From positions 620,001-684,000 of the forward strand of contig NZ_CP059560.1 in assembly GCF_017894385.1 (NCBI RefSeq): a stretch of DNA of 64,000 nt. Direction: 5' to 3'. The position numbers and the translations under genes are program-made. Numbering within the stretch: the stretch's first letter is position 1; each line of letters opens with the position of its first letter. The notes beneath the pieces are model-generated. The model had not been told where the DNA came from, did not search any database, and worked only from the letters and a program-made list of their open reading frames with translations. Shown here one piece after another: positions 43,796-51,639 of this stretch. Origin of the DNA: Aromatoleum petrolei. GTDB lineage: Bacteria; Pseudomonadota; Gammaproteobacteria; Burkholderiales; Rhodocyclaceae.

Positions 43796-44707
43796 ATGCC
43801 GGTCGACAACAATGTCACCCTGCGCCAGCTGCGCTACTTCATCGCCGCCGCGGAGACCGGCCAGTTCTCGATGGCCGCCACGCGCGCCCACGTTTCGCAA
43901 TCGGCCATCACCAATGCGGTGCTGCTCCTGGAAGAATCGCTGGGGGTGCGCCTGTTCGACCGCAAACCCCACGGCGTGGGCCTCACCGCCGAGGGGCACA
44001 GCTTCTATCGACGCACGCGCGACATCCTCGACGCGCTCGAAGACGCTCTGCGCGAACCGCGCTTCCAGGCCCACCACCTGAAAGGCGCGATCCGCATCGG
44101 TGCTTCGTACACCGTGCTCGGCTATTTCCTGCCCCCGCTGCTCGCCCGCTTTCGCGCGAACTATCCGGACGTCGAACTCGACCTCCACGACATGAACCGC
44201 GAAGCCATCGAAGCCGGCGTCGCGGCCGGCGATATCGAGTTGGGCGTGGTGATCCTGTCCAACGTCGTCGAGCGCGAACGCTTCGGCCACCACGTGCTGC
44301 TGCGCTCCCGCCGCCAGCTATGGACTTCGGCCGCCCACCCGCTCCTGCAAAAAGACAACGCGGCCCTCGCCGACGTCGCTGCCTATCCCTACATCCAGGT
44401 CACCGTTGACGAAGGCGAACTGTCGACGCAGCGTTATTGGGCAGCCAAGGGCATTCAGCCCGACATCGCGTTTCGCACCGGCTCGGTCGAAGCGCTGCGC
44501 GGGCTCGTCGCGCACGGCTTCGGCGTCACCATCCTGTCCGACATGGTGTATCGGCCGTGGTCGCTGGAAGGCAAGAAGATCGAGGCCCGCCCCATTCTCG
44601 ATGTGGTACCCGACATGGAAGTCGGGCTGATCTGGCGGCACGACGGCACGCTGGAACGATCCGCCGACGCGTTCAGGCAGTTCCTGATACAGGCTTGCGG
44701 GAGCTGA
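43796..44707 (+). CDS. LysR family transcriptional regulator
   Basis: 303 aa. The N-terminal helix-turn-helix reads TLRQLRYFIAAAETGQFS and AATRAHVSQSAITNAVLLLEE (about residues 7-50); the C-terminal part is the LysR effector-binding domain (GAIRIGASYTVLGYFLPPLL). The gene diverges from the fused 2-oxoacid oxidoreductase gene and probably activates it together with etfBA. Confidence 0.92.
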   Translation: MPVDNNVTLRQLRYFIAAAETGQFSMAATRAHVSQSAITNAVLLLEESLGVRLFDRKPHGVGLTAEGHSFYRRTRDILDALEDALREPRFQAHHLKGAIRIGASYTVLGYFLPPLLARFRANYPDVELDLHDMNREAIEAGVAAGDIELGVVILSNVVERERFGHHVLLRSRRQLWTSAAHPLLQKDNAALADVAAYPYIQVTVDEGELSTQRYWAAKGIQPDIAFRTGSVEALRGLVAHGFGVTILSDMVYRPWSLEGKKIEARPILDVVPDMEVGLIWRHDGTLERSADAFRQFLIQACGS

Positions 44708-45113
44708 GCGGCGCGGCGGTCGTTACGGGCACGTCAGACGGGATGGTCTAGCGGCGACGGTCGGACGACAAGTACTCGGCCTGAACGGTCGTTCGAAAGG
44801 AAGTGTGTACCGGTCAGTAATCCATTGGTTACCTGCCGCTCAACCGCGGACTACGACGAGCGGCAGATTTTCAATCCGGTGAACGCGAACTCCCGACCCA
44901 TAAGAGACCTTCGTTGACCCGGTTATTCAGTGGCAGGTTTATGAGAGGAACAGCCATGCAGCACCTCCACTGCTTATTGGCCGGAGGGATTGCCCTCCCC
45001 TCGGCGCGCATACGCCCGATGTCGCATACTTCGACTCAGAGACCAAGCCGCAAGCACTCCTAAAGAACAGCCCCATGAAAAAAATGAATACTAGTCGTTC
45101 GATTGCAAGCTGT
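44708..45113. other. Gene-free transition into the AT-rich island
   Basis: 406 bp between lysR and the response-regulator gene. The base composition changes here from GC-rich to clearly AT-rich (from about 45050). Small open frames lack ribosome sites. I see no tRNA, integrase fragment or clear attachment repeat, but the composition break marks the edge of an acquired segment. Confidence 0.45.
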
Positions 45114-45980
45114 TCATGATTCAGTAAAGTGGCTATTGATGTAAGCCAAAGCTTGACGAGTCCCAAGTTGCTCAGTTTGAGGGCCAGCCCTCACAAAGAA
45201 AAGCTCTTGAGCCCTCGATTCACCGGACGATTTCCATTTCAGAAAAACCGGGCGATTGGATTGGCGACAGTTAACCACAAAAATTTCCTCTCCCTTAACC
45301 GTTACGGGTTGGGCCGCAATGTACTCAGAAAACTCCGGGCCAATTGCGTCTCTAACGAGATTCCAGAAGTGAAGTTGAAATTTGTCGATATTTTGGAATT
45401 GATCTAACGTGAGACCAAGAACCTCCCCGTCATCCTTCACTCCGATGACTAGGGTGCCACCCGCTGTGTTCAAGAAGCCGACTATGGATTTAAGGCAAGC
45501 CAATTCGATATTCGAATCGGCGCGCTTTGCATGCAAATTAAAGCGGAGCGTCGACTTGAACTCTACCGAACCACATTCTCCACCAGAAATGACCTTTAGT
45601 GCATCAATTGCAGCACTATCTGAAGCTACGATATTTTGAACTTGTGTGAGCAATTCGGTAGATAGATTTTCTTTAGTTACGTAGTCGGCGGCCCCAAGCC
45701 TGATAGCTTGAATTGTTTCTTGCTGTGATCCTTCGCCGGAAACGACAATTACTGGCGGCGCCGAGGCTATGTGCTTGAGCCTTTCCAACAGCCACAACCC
45801 TCCCCAACGGCCGGGCGGCATTGCAAGGTCCGTCAAAATAAGGCTATACGAACACTGCTCAACCTTTCTGAGGGCATCTTCTCCATCCGTTGAAAATTCG
45901 ACATCAATGCCGTTAGACGAAAGAATATTCGCGAACGTCTGGGCGGTATCGACTTGATCGTCAACCCAAAGAATCTTCAT
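45114..45980 (-). CDS. Response regulator with AlbA_2/Schlafen-like output domain
   Basis: 288 aa. The receiver domain (1-120) has the acidic pair D7-D8, phospho-acceptor D51 (LILTDLAMPP), S81 (VVSGEGS) and K103 (YVTKENL), so all key residues are present. Residues about 130-285 form an AlbA_2 domain of the Schlafen superfamily (SVEFKSTLRF, IVGFLNTAGGTLVIGVKDDG). E135-x4-E140 and D183/D184 sit where eukaryotic Schlafens have their three acidic RNase residues. There is no helix-turn-helix. Its ATG overlaps the kinase stop by 4 nt. Phosphorylation probably controls a nucleic-acid-binding or cleaving output. Confidence 0.85.
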   Translation of the reverse strand: MKILWVDDQVDTAQTFANILSSNGIDVEFSTDGEDALRKVEQCSYSLILTDLAMPPGRWGGLWLLERLKHIASAPPVIVVSGEGSQQETIQAIRLGAADYVTKENLSTELLTQVQNIVASDSAAIDALKVISGGECGSVEFKSTLRFNLHAKRADSNIELACLKSIVGFLNTAGGTLVIGVKDDGEVLGLTLDQFQNIDKFQLHFWNLVRDAIGPEFSEYIAAQPVTVKGEEIFVVNCRQSNRPVFLKWKSSGESRAQELFFVRAGPQTEQLGTRQALAYINSHFTES

Positions 45981-48900
45981 TCCAGCATCACCTTTTCGAA
46001 TTCCGTTTCATCGGCCTCAGTGGTTTCTGAATTGCCTGTGCAATCAGGAGCGACCGGTTCCAGAGAAGGAAGATCGAAAGAGATTCTGCTACCGCCAGAA
46101 GACATTCTTTCGAATCGAATCCTTCCATGCAACTCCTTCATAATCATTAAAACAGTAAGAAGTCCAATACCTTGGCCGCTCCTTTTTGACGAATCTAGTG
46201 TCAATCCATTATTAAGAGCAATAAGTTGCGAATCTGATAAACCTGGGCCGGAGTCAGTAATCTCGAACGTAACAGTCTTTTCTACAGAGTCTACAAGGTA
46301 CTCAAGAATAACCTTGCCTTCAGAACCAACTGCCTCAATTGCGTTTCGTAATAGATTGGAGAGAACAGACCTCAATCCAGATTCATTTGACCATAACGCA
46401 AATTTTCCGGAAATACCAGGAGGGATAAAGGTTACTCCCTCTGGAACAATAGTCCATGTCTCTGAGACCAACGAGTGCATGAAGGGGCCAAGCTCTAACG
46501 GAGCGATGTCAAGTGAAAGCGAGGACTTGGCGAGCGATCGAATAGCAGAAATTTTGTCTTTGGCAGTATCGATATGGCGACTGGCATCAGTCGCCAATGA
46601 GTATCGTGCACGCATCTCAGCCGCGGCCCTTGCTCTTTGTGCAGCCTCTGAAAAGGCGAGGAGCTCATTTTTCATATCATGAAGAATTGCCGCAATAGAA
46701 TCATAGGTCCGCGAGTCCAATGCGTCCAGTTGGTGATACGCTCCCCAGCACTGCAGGACGATCATATCGAACTCCGTACGCGGAATACTGGGAATCAACA
46801 ATTCAATTGCAAGGCTAGAATTTTCAACGCCACTAACGGGCAACAATTCATTAATTGCACGCCATACCGGGTTGTTCGAAAAGACTTCATCTAAATTGAC
46901 TTTATAATGAGCCGGCTTTGAAACGGATAGGCGCAGGCAGTAATCCATTTGATCTAGTTGAATTACACTATTGCTTTTGTCGATTGATTCAAGAAGTTTT
47001 GCTAGCGCAGCAATTAGCGCCAAGTGAAACCCTTGAGGCTCCTGTATAACCGAGCTGACTGAAATCGATGACTCGACTCGACATCGCCGACGACGAAGCC
47101 CTATCTTGAGTTGGTCTATTAGATCGTCAGCCTCGACTGAACAAATTGTTCGACCACGTAATTTAAAGGCAGTGGCAAATTCAGTGAGCTTCTGAAATTG
47201 GTCATAACCTTGAATCGTATTTTCGAATGAAAGCGGATCGAGGTTGTCAAGCAGAGCCTGCAATTGATCGAGGTACTCAATCAAGCATTTCACTAAAGCC
47301 TGCTGGCGTGACTCCCTACCAGCTTGTGCGAAAAACTCAAAGAAACGCGAAACGTCATTTTCTCTGCGGAGACCAGACTCAGTTAGGAGGTCAGTAACTA
47401 TCCTATGGAACGACTGAAACTTGCCCTTCCTTGCGGAATCGAGACCCAGAACGTCAGTATCGCCTATACGTGATAGCCTTACACCGAACTTCTCCTTACT
47501 GATCGTGTGTATTGTTTCTACCAAGTGGGTGGCGAACCATTTTCGAATCGCACTATATGCCGCGAGAGACTGATGTTTAGCATTAAATGGAGATACCCCT
47601 ACCAAACTATCAAACTCACTTAACAGGGTGCGTGCGCACTGAATCTCAACTATTCGGTTCCCGTCAAACTCATGTGACAAATATGTACGCTCTGGAAAAG
47701 CAATGCAAAGATCTTTATCAGCAACCTCTGATTTAAATCGAACGGTGGGCTTAATTTTGACTTTGCTACCTGCTGACGAACGAGTTTCCCACCTGACGCG
47801 CACACCAATTGCTTGACACCTTTCATTGAGCAACGTTTTTGGGGATAGAGTATTATCTCGTGTCTTATGAAGAGCCAGCTTTGAGCGCAGATAATCGTCA
47901 ATATCTGGGATGTCTTCAAAACAGTCTATGGAAGAATTGATCGTTTGCTCTCGGGAGAGGAAAACAACAGCAATAACTGACTGAGCAAACTCAACAATAA
48001 CGCTTTTGCTCAGAGATTTTTCCCCAGGACCGATCAGACATGCATCTTTTGGAAGCAGTTTCTTGCAGAGTTGTTCGAAGGCATCTGGATTGATTAGTGC
48101 AGCACTCAGGTTCGCGAGCCCACCAGCTTTTTCGATATCCTCGATACTACATGTTCGAATAATGAAGTCCCGGAAGGACCACTGCAGAACGTAGCTACCA
48201 AGGAACGCTAGCAATTTGTTGCTTCGCCCAAAGGTAGGTGTTTGCCGAACCTCTGGATAACTGCAATGGACAAATGCCAGTCCGAGTAACCTAGTTGCCC
48301 AGCTCGGAAGCGACAGGCTAGCCGCTAGGGCGCGTACTTCGACTTCGTTCGGTAGCTTCTGGATTCCACTTGCGAGCTTTGGGATGTCGGTCGCCGGAGC
48401 AACCGGAATAGATTGCTTGCCGGACAGCCTAGGAAAAAGATGCTTCAAGAGAGCACCAGCGGCCTCCATCTCAGCCATTTTTTTTGATCGCGCTTCACCG
48501 CATGCCTTTTCCCCGGATGGTACTTCGACTTGCACAACGAAGATTGCGTCGTGCGCCTCCCCCCGTGTTTCGAGCAAAGAGTATTTAGGTAAGCCTAGTT
48601 TCCGCGCTTGCAGTGCCTCTTGCAGACTGGTCTTACTATCTTTGGCGGCACTTGCCGAAAAGGCTCGCAGGGGAGCAAGCGTAGGCAGAACAGTGCTAGC
48701 AACAAAGTTGTAACCAACTAAGTGAGCGCAGGCGCCAATAAATTGCGCCGCAATATCGGCTTGTGTTCGTACTGATAACCGCTCGGTATTGGTTACTCCT
48801 TGCCCAAACGTCACAAGGTCGGCCTGAATAAGTGCTTGCCCAACTCTCGCAATGAGAGGTTGGTTAAGTGATTGAAGCCTGCGACTAGCTTCTCCGGGAG

Positions 48901-49126
48901 ATCCGTCGGAAACCCCACCGAAAACACCACGAGCGCCGTACAGGGGAACGGTTGCCTTTCCGAGGTCCTCCCATACATGAAGAATAGCGCTAGGTAGGTT
49001 TGCCGCGCACAGGATTTCGTGAGCTTCTGTAATTGCCGAGCGATGGAATAGAGCGGCGCTTACTGTCGGATATTGAGAAAATATACGATTAATCAAAGCC
49101 CGAACGGAATTCATGTCGATTGACAC
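45977..49126 (-). CDS. RNase III-like/dsRBD histidine kinase
   Basis: 1049 aa. Residues about 22-155: RNase III-like domain (LFHRS, EDLGKATV, then TQADIAAQFIGA); of the four catalytic acids only the equivalents of E41 and D114 remain. 163-231: clear dsRNA-binding domain (SLQEALQARKLGLPKYSLLE, then EARSKKMAEMEAAGALLKHL). About 265-415: second RNase III-like domain (FVHCSYPE, NKLLAFLGSYVL), with no canonical catalytic acids. About 430-800: no recognised family. H816 in LHDMKNEL is the phospho-acceptor; N928, DSGPGL (958-963) and GQGIGL (984-989) form a kinase ATPase domain. No membrane helix. GTG start with AAAGGG 9 nt upstream; ATG at 49114 is the alternative. Confidence 0.85.
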   Translation of the reverse strand: MSIDMNSVRALINRIFSQYPTVSAALFHRSAITEAHEILCAANLPSAILHVWEDLGKATVPLYGARGVFGGVSDGSPGEASRRLQSLNQPLIARVGQALIQADLVTFGQGVTNTERLSVRTQADIAAQFIGACAHLVGYNFVASTVLPTLAPLRAFSASAAKDSKTSLQEALQARKLGLPKYSLLETRGEAHDAIFVVQVEVPSGEKACGEARSKKMAEMEAAGALLKHLFPRLSGKQSIPVAPATDIPKLASGIQKLPNEVEVRALAASLSLPSWATRLLGLAFVHCSYPEVRQTPTFGRSNKLLAFLGSYVLQWSFRDFIIRTCSIEDIEKAGGLANLSAALINPDAFEQLCKKLLPKDACLIGPGEKSLSKSVIVEFAQSVIAVVFLSREQTINSSIDCFEDIPDIDDYLRSKLALHKTRDNTLSPKTLLNERCQAIGVRVRWETRSSAGSKVKIKPTVRFKSEVADKDLCIAFPERTYLSHEFDGNRIVEIQCARTLLSEFDSLVGVSPFNAKHQSLAAYSAIRKWFATHLVETIHTISKEKFGVRLSRIGDTDVLGLDSARKGKFQSFHRIVTDLLTESGLRRENDVSRFFEFFAQAGRESRQQALVKCLIEYLDQLQALLDNLDPLSFENTIQGYDQFQKLTEFATAFKLRGRTICSVEADDLIDQLKIGLRRRRCRVESSISVSSVIQEPQGFHLALIAALAKLLESIDKSNSVIQLDQMDYCLRLSVSKPAHYKVNLDEVFSNNPVWRAINELLPVSGVENSSLAIELLIPSIPRTEFDMIVLQCWGAYHQLDALDSRTYDSIAAILHDMKNELLAFSEAAQRARAAAEMRARYSLATDASRHIDTAKDKISAIRSLAKSSLSLDIAPLELGPFMHSLVSETWTIVPEGVTFIPPGISGKFALWSNESGLRSVLSNLLRNAIEAVGSEGKVILEYLVDSVEKTVTFEITDSGPGLSDSQLIALNNGLTLDSSKRSGQGIGLLTVLMIMKELHGRIRFERMSSGGSRISFDLPSLEPVAPDCTGNSETTEADETEFEKVMLE

Positions 49127-49707
49127 AGAAACGTACCCTTTATTAAGAATGTATATACCTAACTATTGCCGGGCTCCCACAACGATAGCAAAAATATCCA
49201 TCGCGGCCTTCGTCCCAATTTCGGCAGAGGATAGGAAATTCAAGGTCACACTTGAAATTTGACGTCACTTCCCATGAAGACATCCGTTTGAGATGTAATC
49301 GACTTCGAAAGCATTACTTACGGAACAAGAAGATCCAGTATGCCAGCATTATGCGGAGATGGCGACGAGCTGTCAGTCGCTTGCGAAGGTCGCTTTCCTT
49401 AAGAGCAACCCGCCGTTCAGAACCGTACTTTTCGTTACTTTTCGATGATCGCTCGTGGCCGAACTGAGACCTCCGGCTTCGGACCCGCCCGGGTACAACG
49501 CGAAGCCAGTGCGACCGTCTCGACCCGACCAATTTCAGCCGGTCGCAGCGGATAAGGAGCCGACACTCGATCAGAGTCGTTGCCTACGAGTCGCGCATAT
49601 TCAATGATGCGATGGCAATATTCGGGCTCGTAGGCAATTCATTCTGCGGTGCGACGTATGCCGACCTCCCCAAACTTTGCCGTTATCGATATCGTGATTG
49701 TTAGCGC
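49127..49707. other. 581-bp gene-free stretch with large inverted repeat
   Basis: Lies between the kinase gene and the DUF2971 gene. It must contain the promoter of the kinase/regulator operon, but I could not assign boxes. A perfect 11-bp inverted repeat, TTGCCTACGAG 49580-49590 and CTCGTAGGCAA 49627-49637, encloses 36 bp. The short frames in this stretch lack ribosome sites and resemble no family. Confidence 0.5.
49580..49637. repeat. Perfect 11-bp inverted repeat with 36-bp spacer
   Basis: Arms TTGCCTACGAG and CTCGTAGGCAA. The spacer contains smaller symmetric elements (CGCAT and ATGCG). It could be a stem-loop of a small RNA or the trace of an element end, or a recombination site; no T-run follows. 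Confidence 0.5.
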
Positions 49708-50520
49708 TCACTCCTTGGGCGGGCTCGATACGACCACCTGAAGAAGCGTCCGGTGGTACAACTCAGATTCCCCAAAGCTGCCGCTGTAACCCAACGATCT
49801 CAATACAGCCTCTCGCTCCTTCCGTTCGGAGGTCTGCAGTCGTGGGTCAAACGTGATCTCGTCAAAAACTTCGTTGGGATCAAGCGGAATCGACAAGAGA
49901 TCGTGATCTTGATCGGTGTCGTGTTGTACGAAGATCGCGCGTACCTCGGCTTCGTGAGAAAAGGCTGATCGCTTCAGGAGAAGCAGCTTTGCGTGATTGG
50001 CTGGGTAGTAGAAGACTCTTTTCCCATGCGCGCCGATTGCGTTGGCCAGTTCCTGCAAGAGTTCCGTGCGACCTACATACTTCACCGCACCGAGAAACCA
50101 TTCCCCAGTGAGTCCTACGGGTGTCCCCCGCTTCAAGGCTCCGAGAAGTTTGCGCGGGGTGCTCCTGACCCGGACGCCTTCGTCTCTCGGGGATGTATTC
50201 CTGCCGAACAGCGCGTCCTTGACAACCCGAGAGTAAGCGCGCAGTAGCGTGTCAGACTCTTCGGTTAGCGACCAGCATTGTGCGTACGCTTGCGGCAACG
50301 ACTGATTGATGATCTCCGGGCCGTCCTGGCAATCCACAGAAATCGCGTTTCCGACAACCTCGAACGGGTCGTCCCAGCGACGGGGCGGTACCAACACCGC
50401 CCGCCGTAGGCGCACCGCTTCTTCAAGGTGCCAAACGGGAAAGATGCGGTAAATAGGAACGTCAAGGTTCGATATGCGGATGATCGCATCGTTGGGAAAA
50501 TCGCTCGCGGTGCGGGTCAT
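49708..50520 (-). CDS. DUF2971 family protein
   Basis: 270 aa. The ATG at 50518-50520 has AGGAG six bases upstream; the TTG at 50544 is less likely. Family features are IYRIFPVWHLEEAV near the start, PPRRWDDPFE near residue 45, AQCWSLTEESDTLLRAYS and, late, the block ELANAIGAHGKRVFYYPA with EVRAIFVQHD. DUF2971 proteins have no proven activity and are frequent in mobile and defence regions. Its composition is intermediate between island and host. Whether it works with the kinase system is unknown. Confidence 0.78.
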   Translation of the reverse strand: MTRTASDFPNDAIIRISNLDVPIYRIFPVWHLEEAVRLRRAVLVPPRRWDDPFEVVGNAISVDCQDGPEIINQSLPQAYAQCWSLTEESDTLLRAYSRVVKDALFGRNTSPRDEGVRVRSTPRKLLGALKRGTPVGLTGEWFLGAVKYVGRTELLQELANAIGAHGKRVFYYPANHAKLLLLKRSAFSHEAEVRAIFVQHDTDQDHDLLSIPLDPNEVFDEITFDPRLQTSERKEREAVLRSLGYSGSFGESELYHRTLLQVVVSSPPKE

Positions 50521-50790
50521 CTGATCTCCTGTAATGCCAGGCAAAACCTATCACCACCTATAAATGGTTCAGGCGCCGGGTCCGTTCGAAGCTCTCTGGT
50601 CTTGGCTTCTCGATCAGCCCGGCCGACCGGATTCGGGCAAACTGCCTGTGGGCCGGGGGAGGATGGCCCTCTATGGTCCGGTCCTTGTTGTGCCGGGCAG
50701 CCGACACCCGAACATGCTAATGCAAGTGCGAAGGGCGACTTATGGAAGAGAGCACGATCGACTGCTTGTGGCCGGCTCCCATCAGCCCGC

Positions 50791-51390
50791 CTAACACCCA
50801 AGTTCGCGATAGCGAAGCCTCATCTTTAGCAAGGTGCCTTGTATCGATGAGAGATGCGATCCGGAGGCAAGCCTTTCACGCTGCTCCATCGCTGCGAGGT
50901 CGCCATCCAAGGCGTAGCATTCCTGCCGGTCGGTGGGTTCAAGTTTGATCCGTCGCCGATAGACGTCCATCTGCTTCGCGTCCATGCCAGTGAGCGGCTT
51001 TAGGGCATCGGCCATGATTTCGCGGTGCCGTTCGAGGCGAACGTCGTTGCCAACGCGTTCGCTGCCCGATAACTTGCTTACCCCCCGTGTGGGTTCGACC
51101 TCGATCTTGCGCGCTCCTAGGCACGGGGAGTCCGAGTAGGTCACCTTGCCATCCGCTTCACACCTGAAGACCGTTCGCGAAGGCGGCGTCAGATTCTGCG
51201 CCCATGCGTCCATGCCTGGGGCTGCGATCACGAACAATGCGATCGCGGTCAGTGCAGAGCCCTTCGTCGTGCGGAGGACAGTCGCGCGCTCGACACTTTT
51301 CGACCGATTACAGTCGTTTAGCAAGTGGCCCCCGGGTACATGAAGATTCGCCCGACATCTTAAGTGCGTGGCATGCGAGCTGCCAAGCAC
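50791..51390 (-). CDS. DUF4124 domain secreted protein
   Basis: Up to 199 aa, but the true start is uncertain: there is no ATG and no convincing ribosome site; the GTG at 51388-51390 or the TTG at 51322-51324 are candidates. A signal-peptide-like helix (ALTAIALFVIAAPGMDAWA) is followed by the DUF4124 motif VFRCEADGKVTYSDSPC, typical of small exported proteins of beta- and gammaproteobacteria. The rest is a charged helical segment (DVRLERHREIMADALK) and a terminal Cys. Function unknown. Confidence 0.65.
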   Translation of the reverse strand: MLGSSHATHLRCRANLHVPGGHLLNDCNRSKSVERATVLRTTKGSALTAIALFVIAAPGMDAWAQNLTPPSRTVFRCEADGKVTYSDSPCLGARKIEVEPTRGVSKLSGSERVGNDVRLERHREIMADALKPLTGMDAKQMDVYRRRIKLEPTDRQECYALDGDLAAMEQRERLASGSHLSSIQGTLLKMRLRYRELGC

Positions 51391-51639
51391 TCCAACTGAG
51401 ATGGATACGACATCCCGTCGCTTGACTCATTCACCGCCACGGCCGGTGACCGACGCATTGCCGCCCTACACAGACCACCAGGCCGATGGCCGGTCTGGCC
51501 GAACGACGGTCAGTGCGCAGGGAACATCACAACTGAGTGATGAATGGTCGCACAAAGTGCACTTTGGATACCGCAGCCGACGTCACCGACCTAACCCGGC
51601 TCTGCCATAGCCACCGCAGCGCGCCTACCTAGCCGACTT

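Follow-up and report, generated by a model that had tools for sequence, protein, structure and literature searches.

Gene pair and domain architecture

We analysed a window of 64,000 nucleotides from Aromatoleum petrolei (contig NZ_CP059560.1, positions 620,001 to 684,000 of the forward strand; "the window" denotes this whole stretch) and focus on two overlapping genes on its minus strand, a sensor kinase and the response regulator that follows it (Table 1). The kinase protein consists of two successive units of an RNase III domain and a double-stranded RNA-binding domain (dsRBD), written (RNase III–dsRBD)×2, with a complete DHp–CA histidine kinase behind them. Read on the plus strand, the interval of the kinase gene is full of stops.

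Table 1. Position of the features discussed in the text. Residue numbers refer to the protein concerned; the last four rows give positions within the respective locus; aa, amino acids; pLDDT, predicted local distance difference test.
Feature	Position	Strand	Basis
Sensor kinase gene, tandem pseudo-RNase III/dsRBD input, 1049 aa	45977..49126	-	GTG start; Pfam, NCBIfam, hhalign
RNase III copy 1 (residues 18-158), 2 of 4 metal ligands lost	48653..49075	-	TIGR02191; hhalign E 2.5e-6; catalytic columns
dsRBD 1 (residues 160-232)	48431..48649	-	PF00035 E 7.4e-10; hhalign E 4e-23; pLDDT ~69-85
RNase III copy 2 (residues 258-410)	47897..48355	-	hhalign E 9.3e-15; PF14622
dsRBD 2, degenerate (residues 420-512)	47591..47869	-	hhalign E 7.2e-9, reversed control 0.33; helix-strands-helix in both models
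Alpha/beta block, possible pseudo-kinase (residues 609-779)	46790..47302	-	predicted element order; hhalign not significant
DHp–CA histidine kinase core (residues 800-1024)	46055..46729	-	H816 at 46679-46681
Response regulator, receiver and SLFN_AlbA_2 effector, 288 aa	45114..45980	-	PF00072 8.7e-21; PF04326 2.7e-18
Receiver domain (residues 1-119)	45624..45980	-	D7, D8, D51, S81, K103
AlbA_2/Schlafen effector (residues ~135-275)	45156..45578	-	E135, E140, D183 at rat SLFN13 triad positions
Kinase stop/regulator start overlap, 4 bp (ATGA)	45977..45980	-	sequence
Neighbouring gene, candidate defence family PDC-S31	49708..50544	-	PADLOC E 2.2e-55
Kinase-less tandem pseudo-RNase III/dsRBD protein, L056	5467-8397		
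Kinase-less tandem pseudo-RNase III/dsRBD protein, L057	5791-8151		
Kinase-less tandem pseudo-RNase III/dsRBD protein, L058	5452-8280		
Kinase-less tandem pseudo-RNase III/dsRBD protein, L059	5077-7908		

A first-pass annotation, made from the sequence alone, had described an RNase III-like domain, a dsRBD, a second RNase III-like domain and a kinase in this order. The order was upheld by Pfam, NCBIfam and hhalign with controls, and both the dsRBD and the RNase III families were found by profile search. The NCBIfam ribonuclease III model TIGR02191 matched residues 19-229 over nearly its full length (E 9.6e-30, 103.7 bits); the score is below the cut-off for genuine enzymes (166.25 bits), as expected because the RNase III copy is degenerate. 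Pfam placed dsrm (PF00035) at residues 165-230, HATPase_c at 914-1021 (E 5.2e-15) and, under its cut-off, Ribonucleas_3_3 at 279-391 (E 1.1e-4). With hhalign we compared profiles of 12 family members, described below, with 23 RNase III proteins taken from the retrieved loci. All four domains of the input half were matched (E values in Table 1) and the CA domain profile matched kinases with E 3.7e-22, compared to 0.003-0.79 for the reversed-sequence controls and 0.011 or more for off-diagonal segment pairs. No single Pfam, NCBIfam or PADLOC family was found to span the whole kinase protein.

The first-pass annotation had placed a long uncharacterised helical region behind the second RNase III copy. 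This was not borne out at its start, where we found a second dsRBD with the element order KTLLNERCQAIG…VRWET…VKIKPTVRF…A..LLSEF. The 12-member profile of this segment matched the dsRBDs of RNase III proteins with 95.8% probability and the first dsRBD of the same 12 members with E 9.5e-10, and both AlphaFold2 models contain a helix-strands-helix arrangement here (pLDDT ~70-85). The first dsRBD fits the alpha-beta-beta-beta-alpha pattern with G..H and SKK..AE. The second is degenerate: PF00035 was seen on this segment, under the cut-off, in three of the six relatives given to Pfam, and gave no match in the window protein. With a second dsRBD present, the input half becomes a complete duplication of the RNase III–dsRBD unit. 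In fold comparisons of the models, the matches listed by Foldseek and VIA were taken up by the kinase domain, with no RNase III or dsRBD among them.

Residues 609-779 may be a pseudo-kinase, which would make the kinase half a tandem too. In both models the predicted order of 13 helices and strands in this block equals that of the DHp–CA core behind it. This order was reached by 114 and 127 of 200,000 shuffles, in a comparison that was chosen after the models had been seen, and the profile comparison of the block with the kinase was not significant (hhalign E 0.029 and 0.25). The core itself was claimed to be complete, and H816, N928, DSGPGL and GQGIGL are indeed all present. We also agree that there is no convincing membrane segment by the Kyte-Doolittle scale, on which the highest 19-residue mean is 1.76 at residue 372, inside RNase III copy 2. 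A frameshift or an assembly error joining unrelated genes was considered and rejected because the architecture recurs in homologues from other sources.

Relatives and the aligned family

Relatives were collected with three protein searches of 5.8 billion sequences, in each of which about 8,000 candidates were scored, and the family counts are lower bounds. We obtained at least six family clusters: P0001, which holds the window protein, and P0002, P0003, P0008, P0009 and P0010, with 76%, 71%, 39%, 33% and 32% identity, respectively. Their lengths range from 1045 to 1053 aa, except for P0003 (Nitrosospira briensis), which is listed at 967 aa owing to a late annotated start. The Nitrosospira locus contains a full kinase frame of 1059 aa and the same overlapping 288-aa receiver–AlbA_2 gene. 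A plasmid tblastn search returned two further pairs, one in S. europaeiscabiei (1013 and 402 aa) and one in Streptomyces sp. NBC_00841 (1045 and 402 aa), whose regulators carry another effector. The two plasmid kinases are 40% identical to each other, and the S. europaeiscabiei kinase is colinear with the family profile over 903 columns (23% identity, E 1.4e-33).

Furthermore, plasmids of Streptomyces and Rhodococcus encode relatives that keep the tandem of RNase III and dsRBD and have no Pfam kinase domain (for L058 the shorter annotated frame was scanned). Four of these kinase-less proteins entered the 12-member alignment, with the full Nitrosospira frame standing in for P0003. The protein of Rhodococcus sp. 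NJ-530, with the same scores as that of R. qingshengii, was left out, as were the partial matches from R. rhodochrous, Streptomyces NBC_00846 and S. antimycoticus. P0004-P0007 and P0011-P0016 matched in the kinase part only and served solely as kinase controls.

The kinase is rare. Among 101 genomes, 17 of them from the genus, only the window's own genome matched at E 1e-30. In the order 62 of 399 genomes matched at E 1e-13, full length only in the window's own, the other matches being to RNase III or kinases, and in the phylum three of 398 matched at 1e-25, again full length only in the window's own; the samples overlap. Within the family of Nitrosospira one of 125 genomes carries the kinase. 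No plasmid record covered 80% of the window kinase. That the window's subfamily includes phage or plasmid genes was rejected on this result, on viral contigs and, for the query P0017, on phage records, yet distant kinase-type relatives lie on the two Streptomyces plasmids.

Catalytic positions and RNA-binding residues in the alignment

The metal ligands of E. coli RNase III are E41, D45, D114 and E117 (PMC3839596). In copy 1 the positions of D45 and E117 are lost in all 12 aligned members, and the window protein keeps two of the four ligands, E41 (as E53) and D114 (as D124). In copy 2 the window protein has K, A, S, E and Q at the positions of E. coli E38, E41, D45, D114 and E117, such that no ligand is unchanged. 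Across the alignment, all 12 members have A at E41 and Q at E117 in copy 2, with either S or A at D45. The counts given in the first-pass annotation (two ligands left in copy 1, none in copy 2) therefore hold, the D114 position of copy 2 being Glu. Three RNase III proteins set beside these members retained all positions. As D45 and E117 are lost in both copies of every aligned member, we class the protein as a pseudo-enzyme and not as a ribonuclease III.

For the E. coli enzyme it is reported that E117K, E117A, E117Q and D45A abolish catalysis and leave the binding of double-stranded RNA (dsRNA) intact (PMC8708148). The catalytic loss in two phyla together with the fixed Gln argues for binding without cutting. 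In the first dsRBD, G189 and S214 are present in all 12 members, position 216 is K or R in 12/12, and K215 and H192 are each found in nine. The proposal of an RNA-binding sensor rather than a nuclease is well supported at the level of sequence: key catalytic positions are lost in all 12 members, the signature of the first dsRBD is largely kept, and the change of E117 to Q corresponds to a cleavage-dead, binding-competent mutant. The same source describes bacterial RNase III as a dimer of RNase III–dsRBD units, so one tandem chain would carry both halves.

Receiver and exchangeable effectors

The kinase and regulator genes overlap by 4 bp in all four loci with DNA sequence. The receiver residues D7, D8, D51, S81 and K103 are invariant in the four regulators, which also share the motif MPPxxWGGLWLL…SGEG. 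On the kinase side, the phosphoacceptor H, K-N, the N-box and the G2 glycines are kept in 8/8 kinase-type members. With its boxes thus preserved, apart from one changed Gly in Nitrosospira, and a receiver gene overlapping it, the kinase probably signals by phosphotransfer, as had been suggested.

Behind the receiver the effector differs. At two loci we observed a Schlafen/AlbA_2 domain with an E…E…D triad and at the other two a weakly HEPN-like region. The AlbA_2 model PF04326 scored 67 bits in the window regulator and 67.5 bits in the Nitrosospira one (curated cut-off 25.3). No PNP effector was found in the regulator by Pfam; AlbA_2 was found instead. The domain has the E-x4-E and GVxD spacing of SLFN13, in which E205A and E210A abolish cleavage (PMC5862951).

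The effectors of the Streptomyces plasmids contain RNDIFH and RNGLAH at residue 245. HEPN RNases are characterised by the motif Rx4-6H. The HEPN model PF18735 matched one of the two under its cut-off (E 0.0068) and gave no match in the other, and the proteins are possibly a new HEPN-type effector. Both receiver proteins (L054 8648-9856 and L053 8648-9856, plus strand) have a conserved RNxxxH region and a conserved C-terminal part with LAVxTSMxYDGATY, for which no sequence match in the PDB was found in the one of the two that was tested. When the Streptomyces regulator P0018 was compared to plasmids, 164 records matched; two covered more than 80%, both being the known pairs, and the remaining 13 among the 15 listed were receiver matches.

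Genomic setting

The kinase and regulator genes have a GC content of 47.5% and 47.8% compared to 63.4% for the window. The pair is a low-GC insert, and the other loci lie on plasmids or an island. The insert occupies a variable site (44740-51490) between a LysR-type gene and hemerythrin-like and folE-like genes, named by eye. Four sister genomes in which a single contig spans both flanks carry other inserts, of ~2.1, 8.0, 19 and 73 kb compared to 6.8 kb here, hence the description as variable. The PDC-S31 gene (Table 1) lies within this variable stretch as well, 581 bp upstream from the kinase gene; it has no Pfam or NCBIfam match and is a candidate only as to membership of the kinase system.

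The kinase gene of Nitrosospira is accompanied by a VapE-type primase, a phosphoesterase and a WD40 protein. Residues 56-227 of the WD40 protein resemble the Avs1b N-terminus (E 5.5e-12); LmuA and HamA were matched as well. The two genes at L052 5989-11930 (plus strand) encode a calcineurin-like phosphoesterase and, behind it, a protein of 1527 aa that combines the Avs1b-like N-terminus with 12 WD40 stretches and, as judged by eye, a P-loop; they look like a conflict system of their own. Next to the pair in S. europaeiscabiei the annotation lists a CHAT protein and two integrases. At the kinase-less locus of Rhodococcus opacus (L059) BREX genes lie nearby, with brxA and brxB (Pfam) and brxC (annotation) beginning ~2.5 kb downstream, and at that of R. 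qingshengii (L058) a type III methyltransferase (E 4.9e-133) and a helicase (annotation) follow directly. At the two Streptomyces kinase-less loci no known defence gene was seen by annotation name.

Proposed mechanism and alternatives

We propose that the two genes form a two-component system in which a pseudo-RNase III kinase that likely binds double-stranded or structured RNA controls a receiver–Schlafen (AlbA_2) protein predicted to cut RNA, probably in anti-phage defence, and we put the chances of this proposal at about even. The tandem modules in one chain would stand in for the homodimer of RNase III; a duplex spanning the two dead units could be clamped without being cut. Clamping would alter the tandem input and switch the C-terminal DHp–CA kinase, upon which phosphate would pass from H816 to D51 of the regulator. 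Phosphorylation would then free the AlbA_2 RNase (E135/E140/D183) or lead to its assembly; this RNase would cut RNA, likely transfer RNA (tRNA), and growth would stop ahead of phage release. In Streptomyces the same kind of sensor kinase would act on a receiver joined to the different, weakly HEPN-like effector. The sequences establish the anatomy: the domain order, the lost catalytic residues, the preserved kinase and receiver residues, the conserved overlapping pair, the exchanged effectors and the low-GC or mobile setting. We infer RNA as the ligand, the direction of control, the RNase activity and phage as the trigger; detection of phage dsRNA in particular is suggested by the mobile or defence-type neighbourhoods of some loci and by the RNase-type effectors.

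Several observations weigh against this proposal. With regard to the input, the AlphaFold models have low confidence over both RNase III copies (pLDDT <50 over nearly all of copy 1 and ~35-65 over copy 2). Two ligands are intact in copy 1 of the window protein, and in 11/12 members copy 2 retains an acidic residue at D114 (D in five, E in six). Position 165 of the first dsRBD, its first Lys, is Val in three of the 12, all kinase-less, and H192 is Asn in three other members, so RNA binding may differ among members. With regard to the output, the Nitrosospira kinase (L052 13580-16759, minus strand) has DSSSGF in place of DSGPGL in its G1 box, with one Gly changed, and may thus be weak or inactive. 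The alignment of the effector to Schlafen structures (SLFN13) is weak (E 0.12), and AlbA_2 can also serve as a DNA-binding regulator module. With regard to defence, none of the 5027 PADLOC models matched the window kinase at E up to 1, no pair was seen inside a known defence operon, and ten open reading frames (ORFs) chosen from the sister-genome inserts had no PADLOC match. Nothing was recognised in the single ORF tested at the NBC_00841 locus. Overall, two of the four kinase-less and one of the four kinase loci have no recognised defence or mobile neighbour, all three being on plasmids. No relative was found in viral contigs, and P0017, the only query used there in place of the window protein, had no match in phage records; P0017 and P0021 had no PADLOC match at 0.001 either.

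The alternative that fares best, unlikely as we consider it, is a host regulator: the kinase would read the cell's own structured RNA and the receiver–AlbA_2 protein would adjust RNA turnover or transcription under stress. Precursors of rRNA and antisense duplexes are established substrates of RNase III, AlbA_2 modules are also found alongside transcription-factor domains, and the lack of PADLOC matches among the ten ORFs from the site's other inserts fits as well. However, the rare and patchy occurrence of the kinase in the genome samples above argues against such a role, and low GC content, mobile settings and exchanged effectors are atypical of housekeeping regulators.

Rather improbable in our view is a reversed polarity, in which phosphorylation by the kinase keeps the regulator harmless and this brake is lifted when RNA binds or when phage damages the sensor, as in a toxin-antitoxin pair. 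The overlap of the genes and the predicted toxicity of the effector RNase would suit it, and many kinases are known to double as phosphatases, but the kinase core has all of the box residues checked in 7/8 members; the direction is not indicated either way.

We give still less credence to the idea that the pseudo-RNase III senses a protein, for example by pairing with host RNase III or with a phage protein. RNase III domains serve for dimerisation (PMC8708148), the window's genome has a further, separate RNase III match in a frame of 295 aa, the second dsRBD is degenerate and the first lacks its first Lys in 3/12 members. The first dsRBD nevertheless shows K..LQE and SK(K/R).AE in 6/6 close members and G..H in four of these six. 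Finally, a working RNase III fused to a kinase is very improbable: copy 1 of the window protein retains E53 and D124, but with D45/E117 of copy 1 lost and E41/D45/E117 of copy 2 changed in 12/12 members an active nuclease was rejected on the catalytic columns.

Comparison with known systems

By principle the nearest defence system to the proposed RNA-sensing pair is Detocs, which follows a kinase-receiver design and with which it would share the use of a two-component system against phage. Detocs is described as a defensive family of three genes, with an ATP-destroying PNP as its best-described effector (PMC11249213). The present system differs: two genes are linked, the input is built from RNase III and dsRBD, and the effector is AlbA_2 or HEPN-like. 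A fixed third gene was not seen, with the qualification that PDC-S31 was not sought at the other loci, that the contig of Nitrosospira stops 387 bp upstream and that the plasmids are incompletely annotated.

The order of an RNase III domain and a dsRBD in both copies is that of bacterial RNase III (Rnc), but here the unit is duplicated in one chain, has lost key acids and is joined to a histidine kinase. Dicer and Drosha likewise have two RNase III domains per chain; in the window protein, by contrast, a dsRBD follows each copy, there is no conserved active site and the output is a kinase. The effector has the AlbA_2 domain and the E-x4-E…D pattern of Schlafen RNases. Some Schlafen-linked systems are said to defend against phage by tRNA cleavage, and BREX-linked Schlafen RNases with a minimal histidine kinase are described, in which the RNase is fused to the kinase and a winged helix-turn-helix (PMC12839542). 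In contrast to the latter, a receiver here has AlbA_2 as its output, and the RNase III-type sensor kinase next to it is a protein of its own.

In animals, PKR and OAS-RNase L respond to structured RNA with a signal that ends in the shut-off of translation or RNA. Structured phage RNA (cabRNA) can also trigger bacterial immunity, as described for CBASS CdnE03 (PMC10686824). Structured RNA as the trigger of a shut-off would be common to these systems and ours, whereas the sensor fold differs and phosphotransfer takes the place of eIF2alpha phosphorylation or cyclic nucleotides. A bolder reading, which we offer tentatively as a possibility, is that of a prokaryotic counterpart of PKR and OAS-RNase L, built independently out of dead RNase III. 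A single-chain pseudo-dimer, perhaps with the kinase dimer fused too, would grip viral duplex RNA and fire by phosphotransfer an exchangeable RNase (Schlafen-type in Betaproteobacteria, HEPN-like in Streptomyces). It would be part of an undescribed, wider family of sensors with tandem pseudo-RNase III, which also occurs without a kinase near BREX and restriction genes. CBASS, too, has exchangeable effectors behind one kind of sensor; the resemblance suggests a wider family.

We know of no described two-component system with a dsRNA-binding input. None was found in the literature searched, among the matches listed and judged by title and start of abstract, with most subscription journals and bioRxiv outside its scope. 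If the proposal is true, the pair would be the first such system known to us and a case in which bacteria turned RNase III, the classic enzyme of duplex RNA, into a signalling receptor. It makes testable whether phage dsRNA is perceived directly by bacteria, in the manner of animal cells, and whether the response is an RNase.

Additional observations

No Rfam match was found in 44600-51600 and no tRNA in the 64-kb window, and promoters and terminators showed no excess over shuffles. Relatives of the AlbA_2 effector with 36% and 29% identity lie on plasmids CP140933.1 (H11) and NZ_CP011038.1 (H13), under features annotated as a DUF262 protein and an N-6 DNA methylase. The kinase-less proteins of L056, L058 and L059 share, as judged by eye, an N-terminal extension with NRW.G...L.

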